The notes below the pieces were generated by a model. It ran no database searches. It was not told where the DNA came from and saw nothing but the letters and a program-made list of their open reading frames with translations. A program made the translations under genes and the position numbers. Below, one piece after another: positions 184-14,813 of a stretch of DNA of 21,825 bases. The stretch lies in the IMG/VR virus record IMGVR_UViG_3300017734_000099, positions 1 through 21,825 of that record; one strand, 5' to 3'. Each line of letters opens with the position of its first letter. Position 1 is the first letter of the stretch. Origin of the DNA: a virus.

Positions 184-1578
184 TCACATGAGGTTGTTAA
201 CGCGAACACGTCTGTAGTAACGGTTGGAGTTTGTTGTAAGAGCTCCGAGACCTTGGTTAAGACCCTCAGCGAATGGATTAGCAACCATTCCGTAACGAGT
301 CTTAAAGCCGATCTTAGGCTGGAAGGTGTTCTCTCCAACTGCACGTACCATCTGGAGGGGTACATATGGGCAGTAGAACAGACCAGCGTCATAAGGGGAA
401 GTACCCTTATAACCAACAACATAGTACTGTGAAGCAGCACCGTTTGCTGAATAAGGATCGATGTAGACTCTGTAGCGACCGTTAAGAACACCAGCGAATG
501 TGTTACCTGTGTCATCGACATTCAGGTTTGCATTCAGAGCAGGTGTGTAGTCGAGCATACCAGCATGTGTCAGAGCTGAAGCAACGTCAGCGGAGCACAT
601 GATGATGTTGCCCTTTCCTCTACGAGTTCTTTGTGCAATTGCGTTAGCATCGCGCTCGATCTGGAAGATCAGACCCTTGAACTTCTCTACACTCCAGCGT
701 CCGTTGGAGTCAACGTCCAGGTCGAAGATACCTGAAGTAGCAGTGTTTGCAGTAGCACCTTGCTCAGCAGTCTTGTAGATGGTTCTGATGACTTCACGGT
801 TGATCTCAGCCAGGATCTCAGTTGAGAGAATGTTGGCGAGTTCCGCTTCAGCGTTCAGACCATGGATTGCCTTGAGGTCCTGTGCGAGTTCTAAGGAGTA
901 TTCTGCTTTCAGAGCTCTGCTCTTAGCAGTTACGGTGACCTTCTCGATTGAGAATGCCATTTCGTTGAACTCGTTACCTGATGTGCCGAGTGACTCAGCA
1001 TCATCGGTACGCATACCCTGACCAACATTGTAGTCAGTCTCAGTTGCGGTTGCGGTTGGGTTCAGCAGACCTGGGTTTGTTCCGCCTTGTGCGGTTGTAC
1101 CCATACCAACGGTAGCACCGGAGTGTCCGTTGAAGCTGTTGCCAGTTGCATTCTGACCAGAGAATGCGGTATCTACTTCGTCGAAGAAGGTTTCTGGACC
1201 GGTTTGATCGTTGTACTTAGAACGCATCGCGAAGATGAGTCCAGTAGGACCAGACATAGGCTGAACGCCAGCCAGGTCATAAGCGACCAGGTTAGGCATA
1301 GAGCGTCTGATCAGGGAGATCAGTACGGGGTCGAAACCAGCAACAGGGCCTGCATCAGCAGCACCACCTGTGAATCCACCATTACCTACAGCGTTGGTGG
1401 GTTGCTCACTCAGGAATGAACCTGACTGAGAGAAAGCATTTTGCTCTCTTAAGAATTTCTCTTGGTTTTCCAGCAGAACAGCGGTTACAGCCTTACGATG
1501 GTTGTCTTTGATTGACTCGCATCCCTCATGCTCAAGAAGAGGGGCCCACTTTTCTACCAGATGCTCTGATTGGAACAT
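184..1578 (-). CDS. gp23: gp23 major capsid protein
   Basis: Major capsid protein that forms the hexameric shell of the head. The protein is 464 residues (T4 gp23 is 521) and has the start typical of cyanophage gp23 (MFQSEHLVEKWAP, then an ESIKDNHRKAV segment). The first 60 or so residues should be removed by the gp21 protease: L56-S57-E58 fits the T4 cleavage rule (L/I)-x-E, so the mature protein would begin near Q59. The N-terminal part is helical and charged; the region after about residue 80 (PVLISLIRRSMPNLVAYDLAGVQPM) is the conserved shell core. The ATG at 1578 has a ribosome site AAAGGT about 8 bases upstream. It follows gp22 by 43 bases, with no clear late promoter in that gap. Base composition is visibly more GC-rich than the neck genes, as expected for a very highly expressed gene. 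Confidence 0.97.
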   Translation of the reverse strand: MFQSEHLVEKWAPLLEHEGCESIKDNHRKAVTAVLLENQEKFLREQNAFSQSGSFLSEQPTNAVGNGGFTGGAADAGPVAGFDPVLISLIRRSMPNLVAYDLAGVQPMSGPTGLIFAMRSKYNDQTGPETFFDEVDTAFSGQNATGNSFNGHSGATVGMGTTAQGGTNPGLLNPTATATETDYNVGQGMRTDDAESLGTSGNEFNEMAFSIEKVTVTAKSRALKAEYSLELAQDLKAIHGLNAEAELANILSTEILAEINREVIRTIYKTAEQGATANTATSGIFDLDVDSNGRWSVEKFKGLIFQIERDANAIAQRTRRGKGNIIMCSADVASALTHAGMLDYTPALNANLNVDDTGNTFAGVLNGRYRVYIDPYSANGAASQYYVVGYKGTSPYDAGLFYCPYVPLQMVRAVGENTFQPKIGFKTRYGMVANPFAEGLNQGLGALTTNSNRYYRRVRVNNLM

Positions 1579-2786: not shown

Positions 2787-3437
2787 TTAAAGATTTGACA
2801 AGAAGTCATTAAACAGACTTAACTTATGTTCCTCCAGTCGTTTTTGATCGACCAGAGTATTAATCTTTCTTTGGGTCTGTTCAGCGAGTTTTTCTCGAAG
2901 AATTCCTCCATCCCAGATCCACTCTTTTCCTTCCATAATCCCTTCAACAAAAGCATCTGGGGCAGAAGGATCAGCAACGATATCAGCAGCTGTTGCTAGC
3001 ATGAAATCGTTACCAACGACATTGCATCCCTCTTTATTAATTTGGAGAGATCCAATACCGCGAGAAGAAACACCGAGTTTTACTCCCTCATCAATTAAAG
3101 AAGATGCAATCTTACCCATGGGTGTGCTAAGAATCTTAGCTTTTCCGATGAAATTAGATCCACTTTCCCTCAAAGAAACAATCTTATGAGAAACACGATC
3201 GAGGTTTACTGTTGGGCCATCAGGATGTCCCAGTTCACCAAGTGCTCTACCAGATTGAATATTTGACTCATTATAACGAGCAACTTCTTTACGAAGAGTC
3301 TCCATGGGGTACATACGACCATTACGGTTTTTGATGTCTCCTTGAAGAAAAACTCCTTCAATATACAAAGACTTCTTGCCGTTCTTTTGTTCGACAAGAA
3401 ACTTTACTGATTCTACTTCTTCTCTGATTAGTTTCAT
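2787..3437 (-). CDS. gp21: gp21 prohead maturation protease
   Basis: Serine protease that sits in the prohead core, digests gp22 and the other core proteins, and trims gp23 and itself before DNA packaging (T4 gp21, MEROPS S77). Length 216 residues, against 212 in T4. The catalytic histidine is most likely H71 in GELGHPDG and the nucleophile S124 or S125 in LGVSSRGIG; their 53-54 residue spacing matches the T4 H85/S140 pair closely. The conserved IKNRNGRMYP segment (about 36-44) is also visible. The ATG at 3437 is 4 bases after the previous stop, and its AGGAT ribosome site overlaps the end of that gene, so the two are probably translationally coupled. Confidence 0.95.
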   Translation of the reverse strand: MKLIREEVESVKFLVEQKNGKKSLYIEGVFLQGDIKNRNGRMYPMETLRKEVARYNESNIQSGRALGELGHPDGPTVNLDRVSHKIVSLRESGSNFIGKAKILSTPMGKIASSLIDEGVKLGVSSRGIGSLQINKEGCNVVGNDFMLATAADIVADPSAPDAFVEGIMEGKEWIWDGGILREKLAEQTQRKINTLVDQKRLEEHKLSLFNDFLSNL

Positions 3438-8643: not shown

Positions 8644-8880
8644 CTACCAATCTGGGTATATATCTGGGACATCTGGAACAAAATCTCTCTTAGATCTATT
8701 CTCTATGATTCTCTTTTTTGTACAATCCTTACATTCATATGAATACGATGAAGATACTGGTCCTCTATCTTTTCTAGTCCTATAAAAATTATCAACTAGA
8801 TTTTTTTCTACTCCACAAGATCTACAAATTCTTTCATGCAGTAATAAGTGAGATAAACTAAACTCCTCGTCAATATTCAT
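8644..8880 (-). CDS. Small zinc-ribbon protein, unknown function
   Basis: A 78-residue protein with two CxxC knuckles, C19-x2-C22 (ICRSCG) and C50-x2-C53 (YECKDC), 27 residues apart. Between and after them lie basic stretches (FYRTRKDRG, TKKRIIENRSKRDF). The layout resembles the zinc-binding half of small phage HNH or endonuclease-VII-like proteins, but no HNH histidines or acidic catalytic residues are visible. A structural or nucleic-acid-binding zinc ribbon is therefore more likely than a nuclease. The ATG at 8880 overlaps the stop of the upstream membrane protein by one base (TAATG) and has a GGAG ribosome site, so the two are translationally coupled. T4 has no gene at this position. Confidence 0.82.
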   Translation of the reverse strand: MNIDEEFSLSHLLLHERICRSCGVEKNLVDNFYRTRKDRGPVSSSYSYECKDCTKKRIIENRSKRDFVPDVPDIYPDW

Positions 8881-9230
8881 TACTCAGAACTCCAATCCCA
8901 ATTCCAAGGGAGTATTGCGACACCCAAATATGGCATAAGTACATACTCATCTAATAATATTAAAATAGGAACAAAAACAAAAAGTTCTAGAGCTATCCTT
9001 TTTTTCATAGGCAGTGATTCCACCCATCTTCTCCAAGGATTATCTGCTAACCTATCAAGTTTAAGTTTATAGAACAATGTTTCAGACCACCAGTTAACAT
9101 CAAGTATATTCTTTAACCAAATGAGAGGTGTAAACAGCCATCTAATCTGTTTATTCCATCTAAAGAGAATATATATCCATCCTATTATAACTGAGAATAA
9201 AATTAAAACTAATAATATATCGTAAATCAT
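8880..9230 (-). CDS. Small inner-membrane protein, unknown function
   Basis: A 116-residue protein (from the ATG at 9230) with a strongly hydrophobic N-terminal segment (about residues 3-23, MIYDILLVLILFSVIIGW) and a second near residues 78-98 (IALELFVFVPILILLDEYVLM). Between them is a Trp- and Lys-rich loop (WNKQIRW, NPWRRWVESLPMKKR). It should span the membrane twice. I recognise no family. The ATG at 9230 overlaps the gp17 stop as ATGA, which marks translational coupling, and a GGGA ribosome site sits about 9 bases upstream. An in-frame ATG at 9245 would add five residues but overlaps gp17 more deeply. Its place between the terminase and the sheath gene is unlike T4. A holin-like or membrane-assembly role cannot be excluded or shown. 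Confidence 0.8.
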   Translation of the reverse strand: MIYDILLVLILFSVIIGWIYILFRWNKQIRWLFTPLIWLKNILDVNWWSETLFYKLKLDRLADNPWRRWVESLPMKKRIALELFVFVPILILLDEYVLMPYLGVAILPWNWDWSSE

Positions 9231-10876
9231 GATAAGTAATCCCACATATGTGCCATATCTCCATATTCATCCGTATACCAACGATCACCCTGGGCGTCTA
9301 CAAATGAACTTTCATCAGTGATGCCATCATTCAAAAATCCAAAAGGAGCCATGTCTTGCTCTATTTGATTCTTTTGTTCCTCATATAATTTTTTGCGGAC
9401 ATCTTGGTCCGTAAGTTCTTTAAAATAGTCTTGTGCAACCAACCATGCATAAATTACAAGACACATTGCAAGGTCATCGTTACAACCTTCTTCTGCCTCG
9501 AAAGAATTTTTCTTAGAAATAAAAGTGGTCAATTCCGAAATTATTTCATAGTCGCAGAATAATAATTTGTTCTCCTCTATCAGTGTCTTTAAATTTAAAG
9601 ACCCAACTTTTTTGACTGTCTTGGACATCTTCAGTCCGAGTTGCGTTTTCTTTCCAGAAAAACCTTGACCAACTACTTGACCTGCCCTACCTCGCATAGA
9701 GCACATAAGAAGATTTTGATATTCTAGGTCATATTGAATGATCGAGGCTACTTGATCCCCAACGTCATTTACTTCACATAAAATATATGCACTGTTATAA
9801 CTCTTAGAGACTTCATAAATTACATTTGGAAACAACATTGGTTTTATTTCGTTGTTTCTATACTTTGCAACAATCTTATGAGGGAATTCTGTAATGTCAG
9901 CGACTATGAAAGCAGAGTAATCCTCACCAACTCCTCTGGCAACGTCAACGGTCACAATATAATCATGATCTTTTACTGGATCTTGATAAACGTCAAGACC
10001 AGCATTTCTTTTTCTTGGATTTTCATATACCAAACTCTTTAGTTTGCTTGGAGCAATTAAAGTATCAACAGAACCAAGGAACTCACACTCAAACTCAACT
10101 TTAAACTGAGCTTCGGATGTATTTTTGATTGTAGTCGCTTTCCACTTCTCATCGCGACCTGGAACCTCTGACCAGTGAACATCAGTTGGTACATATTCAT
10201 TCAATTGACGCTCAGCATCATGCCACATTCGGTAGAAATGATTCATACCATGTGGCGTAGATACGATAATTACTTTGGTGCTTTTACCAGAAGTAATAGT
10301 AGGATAAACAGAGGCAAAGAACGAGTCAGCAACATGATTCGGGACGAACGCGAACTCGTCGAGAAAGAGGATGTTAAACGACATACCTCGTACAGCACTC
10401 GCAGACGTAGAAGCTGCCAATATCTTACTGCCATTTTCTAATTCGATAGATCCCTTATTCCAGTTTAATATACCTTGTTGCATCCACTTAGGCAAGTTCT
10501 CATACGCAGTCTGTAATCTTCCTAACAATTCCCTCGCGGTGGCTGCTTTGTTAGCAAGGATACCAATATTAACACTATCGTTAAAGACTGCGTAGTGAAG
10601 AAGATAAGATACCACAGTCGTAGACTTACCAGTCTGACGAGGCATCTTACAAATATTGAATCTGTTTTCATGGAAATTGTTAATTAACTTTTCCTGGAAA
10701 TCATATGGTTGGAATTGTGTAAGACCTTCATCAAGAGAAACAATCTTGACGTGATTCTGTGCAAAATAAACTGGATCTTCCTTGCAGCGAAGGAATTCCA
10801 CCATCATTTCTTCAGTCCATTCAATTTGAGTATTCGCTTTTTTTAATAAAGGATTACCAAGATAATTTTCACTCAT
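9227..10876 (-). CDS. gp17: gp17 terminase large subunit
   Basis: ATP-driven packaging motor and headful nuclease that works with gp16 at the gp20 portal. Length 549 residues (T4 610), with a shorter N-terminus. The ATPase half has Walker A PRQTGKST (about 79-86) and Walker B LFLDEFAF (about 170-177) with the catalytic Glu, followed by the coupling motif VSTPHG (about 205-210). The C-terminal RNase-H-like nuclease has acidic residues in TVDVARGVGEDYS (about 309-321, D311), in CEVNDVGD, and in the CNDDLAM segment. All key motifs are intact. The start chosen is the ATG at 10876 (MSENYLGNPLL), 7 bases past the preceding stop; the seven extra upstream codons begin with TTG inside the previous gene and are less likely. 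The stop overlaps the next gene as ATGA. Confidence 0.96.
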   Translation of the reverse strand: MSENYLGNPLLKKANTQIEWTEEMMVEFLRCKEDPVYFAQNHVKIVSLDEGLTQFQPYDFQEKLINNFHENRFNICKMPRQTGKSTTVVSYLLHYAVFNDSVNIGILANKAATARELLGRLQTAYENLPKWMQQGILNWNKGSIELENGSKILAASTSASAVRGMSFNILFLDEFAFVPNHVADSFFASVYPTITSGKSTKVIIVSTPHGMNHFYRMWHDAERQLNEYVPTDVHWSEVPGRDEKWKATTIKNTSEAQFKVEFECEFLGSVDTLIAPSKLKSLVYENPRKRNAGLDVYQDPVKDHDYIVTVDVARGVGEDYSAFIVADITEFPHKIVAKYRNNEIKPMLFPNVIYEVSKSYNSAYILCEVNDVGDQVASIIQYDLEYQNLLMCSMRGRAGQVVGQGFSGKKTQLGLKMSKTVKKVGSLNLKTLIEENKLLFCDYEIISELTTFISKKNSFEAEEGCNDDLAMCLVIYAWLVAQDYFKELTDQDVRKKLYEEQKNQIEQDMAPFGFLNDGITDESSFVDAQGDRWYTDEYGDMAHMWDYLS

Positions 10877-10883
10877 AAAATAA

Positions 10884-11726
10884 TCAATTATCCACAAGAA
10901 TTATATTAAAAGTTGAGCTAACAATTGTTCCACCACCATCGAATGCTTGAACTTCAATGTCAGTTTTTTCAACAAACTTTAATGGAATAGAATAGTTCTT
11001 TACATGAAAACCACCTGATACTGCCATAGTATCAGCGGTAGTCATAACAAATCCATTGACAGGTAATCTAGTTCTCAAGAAAGCAGATATTGAGGTATTA
11101 TAATTACCATTACCAATAGTCCATTGTGTCACATAAGCAGTTTTACCAGCAGGAACTGTATACAATGCTAACATTGTTTGACCATAACCAATAAAATTAG
11201 CACCAGTTCCATCACCACCAATGTCTGCTAATACTGTTCCAGCACCACTAGATTGAGTGCTGATGATAAGATTTCCTTTATTATACCCAGTAGATCCAGC
11301 ATCGGTAATAAATGCTCGGTATACTCTTAAGAAAGTGGCAGTAGATCCAGCACCATTGACTGTTAGTTCTTCTGAAATAATATTCCAATTTTCATCCAGA
11401 CCTTGAACTGTTACTTTGATAGCACCAACTTGCCCTACACCATCATCAGATGAAGCAGAGTAAACAAAAATTTGAGAAGCAGTCGTTAGATATTCGTAGA
11501 TACCACCATGCTCCCAGATAGTTTCAATAGTGGTAGTTACATTAGGATTTCTACCAAACTTTTCAATAGAGGAATAACCTGCTAATTGTCCAGCAGCAAT
11601 GGGAATGTTAGCAGCAGATCCATAACTATTGAGGGGGTTGCCGTCTTCATCGGCAATCATCACTACTTCAAATAGCGATGTGCCATTTGCAAGGTAAGAT
11701 TGTGTTTGTTTATTCCACTGTGCCAT
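10884..11726 (-). CDS. Probable virion structural protein between the terminase genes
   Basis: A 280-residue protein rich in Gly, Ser, Thr and Ala, with predicted beta structure throughout and only scattered charge. The N-terminus MAQWNKQTQSYL leads into alternating short strands. The segment LALYTVPAGKTAYVTQW (about 185-205) is a pattern I associate with small virion proteins of marine phages, and the C-terminus (TIVSSTFNIILVDN) reads as a final beta strand. No signal peptide, transmembrane helix or catalytic motif is visible. A head or fibre component is the best guess, from composition and from the late-gene setting. The ATG at 11726 has the strongest ribosome site in the window (AGGAGGT, about 7 bases upstream), which suggests high expression. 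It lies between gp16 and gp17, which are adjacent in T4. Confidence 0.8.
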   Translation of the reverse strand: MAQWNKQTQSYLANGTSLFEVVMIADEDGNPLNSYGSAANIPIAAGQLAGYSSIEKFGRNPNVTTTIETIWEHGGIYEYLTTASQIFVYSASSDDGVGQVGAIKVTVQGLDENWNIISEELTVNGAGSTATFLRVYRAFITDAGSTGYNKGNLIISTQSSGAGTVLADIGGDGTGANFIGYGQTMLALYTVPAGKTAYVTQWTIGNGNYNTSISAFLRTRLPVNGFVMTTADTMAVSGGFHVKNYSIPLKFVEKTDIEVQAFDGGGTIVSSTFNIILVDN

Positions 11727-11740
11727 TTAAATACCTCCTA

Positions 11741-13312
11741 TCAACAATTCCAAGCTCTAAGTGATTTATTGATTCTGCTATCTGGATCCCTAGCAGTCTT
11801 AGCAGATGTCAATTTCTTTTTCATTCCTCTCATTCTAGCGCAAAACGATGCCCTACGCTTATTTCCAACCTTCTTGCTTGGTGCTTTAAGGTTAGATCCT
11901 GGATTTTCTCTCTCATACGATTTTCTTCCTTTTTCGTTAAGTCCTCCCGACTTGTTCTTTCCTTCTTTTCTTGTCCATGCCGATGATTCGACATATAAGA
12001 ATGGTTGTCCTGGTTCATACTTGGAAACTTTAAAACTCTGCAGTATTGCTTCAGGATAAACTTTCCTAATCTGATCTTGGACATCAGATCTCTTTGGAAG
12101 AGTTAGTTGTGGGAAAAATAACTTGAGGGCATAATATTTACCTCTCCAATTAAAGTAGGTATCGACAAGATTCCCTGTTTTTGCGGGAACTCTTACGGCT
12201 TCACTCATCAAGTCTTCATTAGTGATAACATCTTCAATATGTGCAAATGTATTGCCATTAGCGTCTTGTATTTCAACTTCTTCTTTCTTTGTTTTTTTGA
12301 CACAGTTTGGATATCTTTTTCCAAACATAGTCTTCATACCCTTCTTTTCATAGCCTGGCCAGCACTTTTCATCCAATTCAAATTCTTCTTTTTTAGTTTT
12401 GTTTCCCCAATTCTTCGCGCCTTTCTTGCGGCATTTGACCAATGCTCCTGAAGCATATGCACTTGGCCAAACTGAGTAGCGTGACTTGACTTTATGATAG
12501 CAAGCGTCTTTTTCTCCTGCTGCTTCATCAATATCAATCTCGTCACCTACTTCGATGTTGTTTTCTTCGAACCAACCTCTATTTACCTCAAGGGCACATA
12601 CTACTTCTCCTTCTGATGATACTGGAGTCTCGTCGAGGGGTTCTAATTGTTTAATACTTTCTATGATTCCATTTTCATTAATGAATGCAATATCCAATGG
12701 AATTCTTGTTTCCTTCATATAGAAGGATTGTTGAGTTAAATCATCAAATATGAATAGCATTCCACTATTCTGATCCAGACTCTCGCGGAACATAAGTCCA
12801 AGATTAAAGTCCCTAATATCTGTAGGAATTTCTACATTAAGTGGTAGTGTTGTAAATTCTTCAGTGCTCACGTTAATTGCTTTCCCTTTTCTATCTGGAT
12901 TTGGATCTTGACGATTCTTGCGTCTAAATGCAGCATCTTCCTCCTTTTTGGAGAGATTACGCTTCATTTTACTTGAACCACATTTTGGTTTTGTGGTTTG
13001 TCCTGGTTGTTTTGCACAGGGTTTACCTGCGTATTTGCCACCCAGTTGAACCCAACCAGGCTTCCCATCACTAGAGCGACTCTTGCCAAACCAGTCACGC
13101 AAAGAACTATCACCACTTTTCGATTCACTTACACCTCCATTACCACCATTACCATTTGAGCTTTGCTCTCCACCCTCAACGGGTTTATCAATACCAACCT
13201 CTTCTGGTTCCTTACCGTTGCCAAAGTACCTTCCAGTCATTTTAAGACCAGCAGGAATCTTTTTACACTTTTTATCAGTGTAGCAAAAATAGTAACCGGG
13301 TTTGCACTTCAT
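11741..13312 (-). CDS. Modular Cys/Lys-rich protein with a DUF192 domain
   Basis: A 523-residue mosaic. In order: (1) a cysteine motif CKPGYYFC-x5-CKKIP (3-20); (2) a Gly/Ser/Asn linker (about 45-68); (3) a basic module SLRDWFGKS to CGSSKMKR and a RRKNRQDPNPD tail (70-142); (4) a DUF192 domain (about 158-262: GLMFRESL, GMLFIFDD, MKETRIPLDIAF, ALEVNRGWFEENNIEVGDEI); (5) a VWPSAYASGALVKCRK module (281-295, DUF5872-like); (6) CWPGYEKKGMKTMFG to PNCVKK (317-340); (7) a TYFNWRGKYYALKLFFP module (about 375-440); (8) a basic C-terminus SFCARMRGMKKKLTSAKTARD to WNC (489-523, DUF6321-like). Family names are from memory. The function is unknown; the late-gene context between gp16 and gp17 suggests a head-associated or packaged protein. 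The ATG at 13312 lacks a good Shine-Dalgarno; a GATAAATA motif lies 25 bases upstream. Confidence 0.88.
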   Translation of the reverse strand: MKCKPGYYFCYTDKKCKKIPAGLKMTGRYFGNGKEPEEVGIDKPVEGGEQSSNGNGGNGGVSESKSGDSSLRDWFGKSRSSDGKPGWVQLGGKYAGKPCAKQPGQTTKPKCGSSKMKRNLSKKEEDAAFRRKNRQDPNPDRKGKAINVSTEEFTTLPLNVEIPTDIRDFNLGLMFRESLDQNSGMLFIFDDLTQQSFYMKETRIPLDIAFINENGIIESIKQLEPLDETPVSSEGEVVCALEVNRGWFEENNIEVGDEIDIDEAAGEKDACYHKVKSRYSVWPSAYASGALVKCRKKGAKNWGNKTKKEEFELDEKCWPGYEKKGMKTMFGKRYPNCVKKTKKEEVEIQDANGNTFAHIEDVITNEDLMSEAVRVPAKTGNLVDTYFNWRGKYYALKLFFPQLTLPKRSDVQDQIRKVYPEAILQSFKVSKYEPGQPFLYVESSAWTRKEGKNKSGGLNEKGRKSYERENPGSNLKAPSKKVGNKRRASFCARMRGMKKKLTSAKTARDPDSRINKSLRAWNC

Positions 13313-13335: not shown

Positions 13336-13752
13336 TTATTTATCTTCTTTTAATCCAGACTTTAGCATCTTTGCTAATTCTGCAGTAGATCCAACAAACA
13401 GAGCATTATTGACTGTTGATGGCCCCTTCTCCTTTTCTTCTGTATTAACGTCCTTCAACTTCTTTTGAAGATCCATCAACTTATCTGTTGCATCAGAAAC
13501 GCTCTTGATAAGTTGGCCTGCGACTTCATATGCCCTTGGTTGATCACTTTCCTGTGCTAACTCAAGAATGCCATTTATAGCTTCTTGTCCCTTTTCTATA
13601 ATAGAATAAAGATTTCCTCTTGTATATTCATAGTCTTTTGTTACATCATCTTTACTTCTCTCTGGAACTACTTCTGACTTCATAATCTCAACCTTTTCAT
13701 CACTTTTCTCAATACCTAAAGAATCTTCTATTTCATCAAAATTTTTAGTCAT
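13336..13752 (-). CDS. gp16: gp16 terminase small subunit
   Basis: DNA-recognition and regulatory subunit of the packaging motor, which forms rings and stimulates the gp17 ATPase. Length 138 residues, against 164 in T4. The protein is charged and helical: an acidic N-terminus (MTKNFDEIEDSLGIEKSDEK), a central helical pair (DYEYTRGNLYSIIEKGQEAINGIL and AYEVAGQLIKSVSDATDKLMDLQKKL) that matches the coiled-coil core of T4 gp16, and a C-terminal VNNALFVGSTAELAKML typical of cyanophage gp16. The ATG at 13752 was preferred over a TTG two codons earlier; it lies 2 bases after the gp15 stop. Its own stop, TAA, lies inside a GATAAATA promoter motif. Confidence 0.92.
   Translation of the reverse strand: MTKNFDEIEDSLGIEKSDEKVEIMKSEVVPERSKDDVTKDYEYTRGNLYSIIEKGQEAINGILELAQESDQPRAYEVAGQLIKSVSDATDKLMDLQKKLKDVNTEEKEKGPSTVNNALFVGSTAELAKMLKSGLKEDK
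13337..13344 (-). promoter_or_regulatory. Possible late promoter GATAAATA overlapping the gp16 stop
   Basis: The minus strand reads GATAAATA, and the TAA inside it is the gp16 stop codon. It lies 25 bases before the start of the modular DUF192 gene, the same distance as the two exact TATAAATA sites at 3733 and 3946. GATAAATA also occurs by chance inside gp22 (1998-2005), so the motif alone is not decisive. Confidence 0.5.
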
Positions 13753-13754
13753 AA

Positions 13755-14813
13755 TCAAGGATCAATATCCTGACCAGAAGTTGGATTGAATATCTTTCCA
13801 TCACTAAAGAAATCCGTAGAACCATCAAATCCAAAATCGTCTCCAGATTCGATAAGTATATCGTCTTGAACATCTACGACAAATATTGCAGTTGATGCAA
13901 TATGACTAACAGCAGTTGTATTTTCATAACCTCTGGATACAACTAAGTTATTGTCAATAATTTTACTAATAAACATTAGTTCATCATTAATTGTAATTCT
14001 AGAATGCTCTGAGAATAGAGATCCGTCAGAAACTGATATATTAGTAGTATCTGCTTCTATACTTCCAGCAAGAGTTCCTGCTTGTGTTCCAGTATAATTT
14101 TTTGTAGCCGTAGGTGTTCCAATATATCTCATACTTCTTGGAGTCTTCTTCGAGGTATCTGTATGATAATCCACCTGAACTTTTTTGATAATGCCTGGAG
14201 TAGATCCTGAAGGGATTGGGCCATAAAGATAAGTTTTTACATTAAATTGAAGAGTATATAAAAGAACCCTTCTTTTGTTGTAGTCACCATCATAATCATC
14301 TCGCATACGTATACTTTCTAAGACGACAGGAATATCTTTTACCTCATTAATTTCATCAATTAATTTAACACTAACATTATATGCTGGTTGGAAGTATGGC
14401 AATATTTGTTCAATAATTTGAAGAGCATCTTCATTCAATTTAGTCATAATATTTAACTCAAATCCCATATTATATGGAACCGGCATGAATACTTTTTTAA
14501 CTTCTTTTTTATCTGATTTATTATATGCTTTAAATTGTTTTGTTACTGTTCCTTTTCTGGATGGGTCGTAAGTGAGAGAATTCATCTCAAACGACATTCT
14601 TGGGAGAGTTATTCCTCTTTTACTTTCAATATCTGCTTGCTGTTCTATTTTTGCTAAGAATTTTTGTATGGGAGAGTAAGCTAAAGGAACTTTAATAACA
14701 CTTGTAATGTTATTGGAAGAATCTTTATGTCTTACGTCAATATTATTAAATATTGTTCCAAATGCGACAACGGTTTTTCTAAAAATTTCATTGTAATAAT
14801 ATGTTCCTAACAT
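13755..14813 (-). CDS. gp15: gp15 tail completion and sheath stabiliser protein
   Basis: Caps the tail tube and sheath and gives the docking site for the head neck. Length 352 residues, against 272 in T4. The first 200 or so residues follow the family: MLGTYYYNEIFRKTVVAFGTIFNNI, the PRMSFEM segment, PYNMGFELNI, the PYFQPAYNVSVKLID block and VLLYTLQFNVKTYLYGPI. After residue 245 an inserted beta module runs to about 313 (ISVSDGSLFSEHSRITINDE, then SRGYENTTAVSHI), followed by an acidic tail (DDFGFDG, NPTSGQDIDP) common in cyanophage gp15. The ATG at 14813 is 3 bases past the gp14 stop, with GGAG overlapping the gp14 end as ribosome site. It is part of the tight gp13-gp16 operon. Confidence 0.93.
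   Translation of the reverse strand: MLGTYYYNEIFRKTVVAFGTIFNNIDVRHKDSSNNITSVIKVPLAYSPIQKFLAKIEQQADIESKRGITLPRMSFEMNSLTYDPSRKGTVTKQFKAYNKSDKKEVKKVFMPVPYNMGFELNIMTKLNEDALQIIEQILPYFQPAYNVSVKLIDEINEVKDIPVVLESIRMRDDYDGDYNKRRVLLYTLQFNVKTYLYGPIPSGSTPGIIKKVQVDYHTDTSKKTPRSMRYIGTPTATKNYTGTQAGTLAGSIEADTTNISVSDGSLFSEHSRITINDELMFISKIIDNNLVVSRGYENTTAVSHIASTAIFVVDVQDDILIESGDDFGFDGSTDFFSDGKIFNPTSGQDIDP

Follow-up and report, generated by a model that had tools for sequence, protein, structure and literature searches.

Shuffled short modules and prohead protease-type motifs in a late protein of T4-like cyanophages: a candidate head polyprotein

A 523-residue protein encoded in the late gene cluster of a T4-like cyanophage is, in our assessment, probably a head-packaged polyprotein, a string of beads that the prohead protease gp21 would cut into bead-sized fragments staying in the mature head. 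Its location in the head is well supported; the cutting is inferred from sequence, and the chain's route into the core, its association with DNA and a possible injection into the host are all inferred. What this analysis adds is a putative gp21-type cleavage motif preceding most beads. We propose that independently folded, partly basic, Cys-containing short beads are made as one chain from the late capsid/packaging operon, with a DUF192 domain added to the chain in the lineage studied here. The bead chain would enter the prohead core, where gp21 would cut after hydrophobic-x-Glu at bead boundaries (E63, E263, E315 and E371) to leave bead-sized fragments with the DNA inside the mature head.

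Gene neighbourhood and modular composition

The DNA analysed, a 21.8-kb fragment of an uncultivated virus (the window), carries on its minus strand a T4-like cyanophage late structural cluster comprised of gp13, gp14, gp15, gp16, the 523-aa ORF, a 280-aa protein, gp17–gp20, gp21, gp22 and gp23 (the names gp13, gp14 and gp18–gp20 derive from gene order and comparison with related phage genomes). The 523-aa ORF runs on the minus strand from an ATG at 13312 to a stop at 11741, the coordinates given for it in the preliminary description (11741–13312), and stops interrupt the opposite strand when it is read in the same register. Its placement between gp16 (13336–13758, minus strand; DNA_Packaging, PF11053) and gp17 (9227–10897, minus strand; Terminase_6N/6C) had also been described correctly; the 280-aa ORF (10884–11726) is a second ORF in this interval. 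The 280-aa protein matches phrog_8198, has no Pfam match, and its residues 1–38 match a virion structural family. Elsewhere in the window, a Cys-rich 78-aa protein (8644–8880) matches the endonuclease VII family phrog_4723.

By sequence comparison, the 523-aa protein is a member of T4-GC119, a family already described but without an assigned function. Its closest homologues in isolates are S-SM2 SSM2_109, Bellamy gp123 and a protein of SynMITS9220M01 (63% over the whole length), and membership is met by the matches to S-SM2 (63.5% over 100% of the query) and S-SM1 (59.8% over 70%). Database records label these proteins "T4-LIKE GC 119" (S-SM2 and S-SM1) or "Phage T4-like structural protein, T4 GC0119" (S-E7).

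Seven modules make up the chain: DUF192, DUF6321 at the C-terminus, and five further short ones. DUF192 (PF02643) matches residues 159–261 with an E-value of 1.8e-26 (92.6 bits against a gathering cut-off of 27), which bears out the earlier recognition of this fold, and DUF6321 (PF19846) matches residues 451–521 with an E-value of 2.8e-22 (79.6 bits against a cut-off of 28.5). The Pfam scan of the 523-aa chain found only these two domains and no embedded peptidase or characteristic effector domains. All modules lie on the minus strand. M1 (residues 1–25; 13238–13312) contains C3, C10 and C16, is conserved in relatives and is predicted to form beta strands (pLDDT 74–77). A Gly/Asn-rich linker (residues 26–63; 13124–13237, minus strand) leads to M2 (residues 64–148; 12869–13123), which has C99 and C111. 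DUF192 was delimited at residues 149–262 (12527–12868) from Pfam, the PDB entries 3m7a and 3pjy, and Foldseek. It is followed by M4 (residues 264–308; 12389–12523), the best-conserved segment of the whole chain; M5 (residues 312–344; 12281–12379), with C317 and C337 and recognized through module scans of relatives; M6 (residues 372–441; 11990–12199); and M7 (residues 442–523; 11744–11989), which is the Pfam-supported DUF6321 with C491 and C523. The cysteines listed in the preliminary description mostly stand; its C490 is C491, and C239 and C271 had been overlooked, so that the full set is 3, 10, 16, 99, 111, 239, 271, 294, 317, 337, 491 and 523. Most of residues 266–303 in M4 and the pairs C317/C337, C99/C111 and C491/C523 are invariant across 58 aligned relatives, which argues that the modules are not chance patterns.

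A single continuous fold would have counted against a mosaic chain. AlphaFold2, run with the 58-sequence alignment, instead predicted ordered islands (residues 1–20, about 71–135, 155–262, 314–340, 376–441 and 459–523) separated by disordered linkers (pLDDT 58.5, pTM 0.28). M6 has a predicted beta-beta-alpha-beta arrangement and M7 is all-helical. M4 is predicted to be disordered, which is not proof of disorder because its invariance gives little covariation signal. A Foldseek search with the DUF192 model matched 3pjy (E 5.7e-8); a similarity to SGIV ORF158L, a histone H3-binding protein (3rj2), was too weak for use (E 0.036). The same search with the M6-M7 model matched no solved structure (best E 1.1).

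Relatives that always carried all modules in the same order would likewise have contradicted a swap-in, bead-on-a-string design. Scanning the ORFs of 181 sequences (loci plus window) with phmmer and HMMs gave module E-values down to 1e-40 and revealed departures from the usual order, DUF192 gained or lost precisely, sets split over several genes, and modules found alone or in other combinations, as that design had anticipated. The most frequent order is M1 M2 DUF192 M4 M5 (M5b) M6 M7, where M5b is an extra Cys/His module (CxHxHxGEECPVHG) located before M6 in about 40 relatives and missing from the window protein. DUF192 is cleanly missing, with intact flanks, in many relatives; it occurs in only 3 isolated cyanophages and is absent from most GC119 isolates. 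Full-length reordered proteins include M2-M5-M4-M7 (P-SSM2 and others), M4-M5-M2 (L131), M1-M5-M6-M5b-M4 (L133) and several with the order M5-M2 (L137, L144, L153 and L161). L134 has the order M2-M4-M5-M6-M1-M7 and is truncated at one end. In P-SSM4 the M4-M5 pair is in a separate gene (GC420), S-CREM2 splits the set between gp160 (M2-M5-M4) and gp137 (M6-M7), and M6 is fused to an S-adenosylmethionine lyase in three loci (L122:3474-4391, L124:2732-3649 and L127:1751-2668). Several contigs are fragmentary, which makes the counts of short architectures upper bounds and leaves the order changes unaffected.

Several further observations concern the module repertoire. Other beads shuffle with those of GC119, among them a DUF3008-like SKKQQRFFG, DHEVSMAQ...PAWVQAKIT, YGKRxKEVMYATANK and SDLYTDENPKGTIHGLGF (L113, L123, L129, L136, L162 and others). 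The motif IEDADGNTFAEVxDIV (residues 348–362; 12227–12271) recurs in linkers and in the long gene lying upstream of GC119. When a genome collection was searched for cellular relatives from which the window DUF192 might derive, the only close hit was a contig from a Euryarchaeota MAG (L185) that carries a DUF192 79% identical to the window's and is probably a mis-binned virus.

Solo ORFs exist for M2, M4, M6 and M7. Lone DUF6321 genes of 81–106 aa are found in pelagiphages, a T7-like cyanophage, Methylophilales and Planktothrix phages, and Microcystis phage LMM01, and in several cases adjoin capsid, scaffold or terminase genes. The T7-like Prochlorococcus phage P-SCSP2 has M4 (gene 19), M2 (gene 22) and M7 (gene 23) between its scaffold and major capsid protein genes, and roseophage CRP-7 has M7 (gp65), M4 (gp64) and an M2-like bead (gp63) in consecutive genes that end at the terminase large subunit. 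Additional solo homologues are CRP-2 gp70 (M4) and L133:3466-3780 (M2). The HMM matches are significant for M4 (E 2e-13) and M7 (E 2e-8) of CRP-7 and for M7 of P-SCSP2 (1e-17). For M2 in both phages and M4 in P-SCSP2 the HMM support is weak (E 0.008 to 0.1), and these assignments were accepted because motif and position fit.

Protease-type motifs at the bead joints

The T4 prohead protease gp21 cleaves after L/I-X-E, and a 10-residue targeting sequence directs proteins to the T4 capsid, with residues 4 and 7 serving targeting and residues 8 and 10 serving processing (PMC9026906). The N-terminus of T4 IPII and IPIII, for example, is MKTYQEFIAE. The proposed cutter in the window is a gp21 with a Peptidase_S77 domain (2787–3437, minus strand; Pfam E 4.6e-33). 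Under the same motif rule (PMC9026906), the predicted maturation site of the window's major capsid protein gp23, FLSE/QPT (slashes mark predicted cuts), lies where it is expected, with its Glu at 1405–1407 (minus strand).

A hydrophobic-x-Glu motif of this type directly precedes most beads. The candidate sites in the chain, all on the minus strand, are VSE/S (E63) at the end of the Gly/Asn-rich linker, IDE/A (E263) at the DUF192/M4 joint (12524–12532; [LI]xE in 44 of 49 relatives), LDE/K (E315) before M5 (12368–12376; 51 of 58 relatives) and MSE/A (E371) before M6 (12200–12208). We picked the joint Glu from its position alone, without reference to the motif, and counted V, I, L, M and F as hydrophobic. 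The residue two before this Glu (P3) was hydrophobic at 98% of 57 distinct M5 junctions and 100% of 41 M6 junctions, and in 24/25 (M5) and 19/19 (M6) clusters at 50% identity, against a background of 26–31%. Positions P2, P4 and P5 at the same joints stayed close to the background level, and Glu residues elsewhere in the linkers gave 26%. Composition-preserving shuffles of the upstream 17-mers pointed in the same direction for M1 (14/16 observed vs 4.6 shuffled), M2 (68/76 vs 20.4), M4 (80/91 vs 31.4), M5 (101/106 vs 47), M6 (67/80 vs 33.9) and M7 (58/90 vs 30), with no clear enrichment over shuffles at the DUF192 and M5b junctions. Because the junctions share ancestry, the shuffle statistics make the case look firmer than it is; more weight rests on the counts after clustering and on the difference between P3 and its neighbours.

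Several solo beads carry a T4-type targeting sequence. Leaving aside the SAM-lyase fusions, each of the 26 distinct solo M6 ORFs begins with MK-x-F/Y-x-x-F-(L/M/I)-x-E, which ends at the joint motif; the solo M2 protein of L133 begins MKTFEEFINE/SNKSGDSSLRDWF and the M7 protein S-SZBM1_192 begins MKTFKQYITE. In some solo ORFs the targeting sequence begins not at the mechanical ORF start but at an internal Met slightly further into the frame, by a few codons. The inner joints of the chains keep the processing positions 8 and 10 and not the targeting positions 4 and 7, as expected for joints that serve cutting rather than targeting. The idea that gp21 cuts the protein, raised in the preliminary description, thus gains strong support from the joint motif and the solo-bead targeting sequences and lacks direct proof. 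Many joints carry V or M at P3, whereas T4 gp21 favours L/I. The N-terminus of the window protein (MKCKPGYYFC) has no capsid-targeting sequence, and no clear site was found in its chain at the M2/DUF192 or M6/M7 boundary. The predicted pieces are residues 1–63, 64–263 (M2 and DUF192), 264–315 (M4), 316–371 (M5) and 372–523 (M6 and M7), with uneven net charge (about -7 for M2-DUF192, +5 for M4 and +23 for M6 plus M7).

Small genes adjoining GC119 (L003:9081-9509, L021:1112-1546, L046:5605-5958, L068:259-693 and L070:5150-5584) encode a targeting sequence and then a capsid-arm-like stretch (QPTNNVGNGGYT...VAGFD). In S-CREM2 gp160 (L084:2239-3132), residues 21–44 share 75% identity over 24 aa with residues 61–84 of the major capsid protein, the arm directly after its predicted gp21 site.

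Virion evidence and alternative explanations

The suggestion that this is a packaged head protein is supported by published virion proteomics of relatives, not of this virus. The S-CREM2 virion proteome includes gp160 (7 peptides, 13.1%) and gp137 (4 peptides, 4.1%) (PMC10665884, Table 3). The full-length homologue S-SCSM1_29 (43%) carries the annotation 'virion protein', and the S-SCSM1 paper reports 45 MS-detected proteins (PMC9602691). S-SZBM1_139, which has only bead M5 in common with the window protein, is in the published virion list of its phage (PMC9146016); S-SZBM1_191 (solo M6) and S-SZBM1_192 (solo M7) are missing from that list. These virion proteomics papers give peptide counts, not termini.

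T4-type targeting sequences (e.g., MKNFSSFLTE) are also present on virion-detected gp6, gp13, gp14, gp136 and gp154 of S-CREM2 (L181/L183), and the strict pattern occurs in 0/93 undetected S-CREM2 proteins. A SAM hydrolase, an APH-like kinase and a cytidylyltransferase are among those five proteins, and two other cytidylyltransferases, L101:1373-2524 (MKKFSAFLKE) and S-SZBM1_140 (MRFRQFIIE), have similar-looking starts.

The alternative that survives best, possible and still unlikely in our judgement, is an injected host-takeover precursor whose parts, chiefly DUF192, would be released and work inside the cyanobacterial host after infection, in the manner of T4 Alt and IPI. It overlaps the reading that we prefer, since packaging and cutting are needed in both. 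It would suit the targeted, virion-borne SAM hydrolase, kinase and cytidylyltransferase of S-CREM2, the fusion of M6 to a SAM lyase and the published comparison of polyvalent proteins to polyproteins (PMC5512222). Against it, no enzymatic fold can be recognised in any bead except DUF192, there is no embedded peptidase and there are no injection data; the bead sets of T7-like phages sit among capsid genes, a position that also fits a role in the head.

More doubtful is an uncut structural protein of the head or tail whose beads bind DNA, capsid or core from a flexible string and whose joints are only linkers or docking motifs. The presence of related proteins in virions, the AlphaFold2 islands and linkers, and the lack of direct proof of cleavage are all compatible with such a protein. 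However, the joint motif agrees with the cleavage rule for the protease of this lineage of viruses, it retains just the two processing positions of the targeting sequence and neither targeting position, and the beads also exist as separate genes.

That the protein works on the terminase in the cytoplasm, as a factor for assembly or packaging, we regard as highly improbable. The position of the gene between gp16 and gp17 invites this explanation, but that location is frequent in GC119 and not universal: the family is also found between gp15 and gp16 in P-SSM2, near gp61/nrdA in P-SSM4 and near the primase in S-CREM2 (gp160). We rejected a terminase-linked role because the gene moves between sites; furthermore, gp15–gp18 is a known hyper-variable insertion region (PMC2984593) and related proteins are found in virions. 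Lastly, Lys-rich short segments can yield spurious hits, but chance or low-complexity similarity without real modules is already refuted by the E-values, the invariant Cys/Trp patterns and the occurrence of the same beads in unrelated phage groups.

We therefore retain the head-packaged, gp21-cut bead chain as the preferred reading. The evidence leaves us evenly divided over its fuller form, a true phage-head polyprotein of cyanomyoviruses: seven or more kinds of bead, shuffled along one string, would be cut in trans by gp21 at each joint, and phages of other lineages would encode such beads as small genes of their own. The strings would have been fused from targeted single-bead genes, with inner joints keeping only the cleavage half of the targeting sequence.

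Implications and comparison with known systems

If correct, this reading would assign a function to Pfam DUF6321 and to a late gene that is frequent in abundant marine viruses and has had no explanation. T4 head processing would no longer be confined to internal proteins that are single units but would take in strings of beads that are cut apart. The sequence rule (a targeting sequence or a hydrophobic-x-Glu joint) would then predict head-carried cyanophage proteins, among them the metabolic enzymes cytidylyltransferase and SAM hydrolase.

The T4-GC119 proteins SSM2_109, SSM1_115 and P-SSM4_160 (Sullivan 2010) are homologous along the chain, and the family occupies the gp16–gp17 position in many genomes. 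The part of Sullivan 2010 that was available to us names the family a 'hypothetical protein', with no modular or processing model, and most isolates lack the DUF192 domain. DUF192 (PF02643; 3m7a, 3pjy) and DUF6321 (PF19846) are clear matches to families that are both of unknown function and here form parts of a longer mosaic.

The likeness to the T4 internal proteins IPI–IPIII and Alt lies in small, often basic head contents, the L/I-x-E rule and the MKTYQEFIAE-type start of solo beads. One criterion for that class, a gp21 motif (L/I-x-E) with gp21 in the genome, is met, and cleavage has not been observed. However, the T4 proteins are single units cut near one end, whereas the window chain has many beads with motifs at inner joints and no targeting sequence. 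Because it lacks that sequence, we do not class the chain as a T4-type internal protein; at most it works like one. The bead sequences gave no significant match to the T4 internal proteins. We do not claim IPIII homology for FAHIEDV, which is common to IPIII and residues 356–362 of the window protein, within its copy of the recurrent IEDADGNTFAEVxDIV motif (motif profile E 8.9, not above reversed decoys).

T4 gp21 also cuts each of the core proteins gp22, gp67 and gp68 into several pieces inside the prohead (PMC9026906). Those proteins are scaffold and mostly removed, whereas the GC119 beads are folded, conserved and also represented by solo homologues. Polyvalent proteins, which the published survey found scarce in cyanobacteria (PMC5512222), carry embedded peptidase domains and effector enzymes, none of which were found in the window chain. 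Yet they resemble it in having many shuffled domains per chain, in being thought to be packaged and in having been likened to polyproteins (PMC5512222), and their criterion of at least two separable domains shuffled between proteins is met by the GC119 modules.
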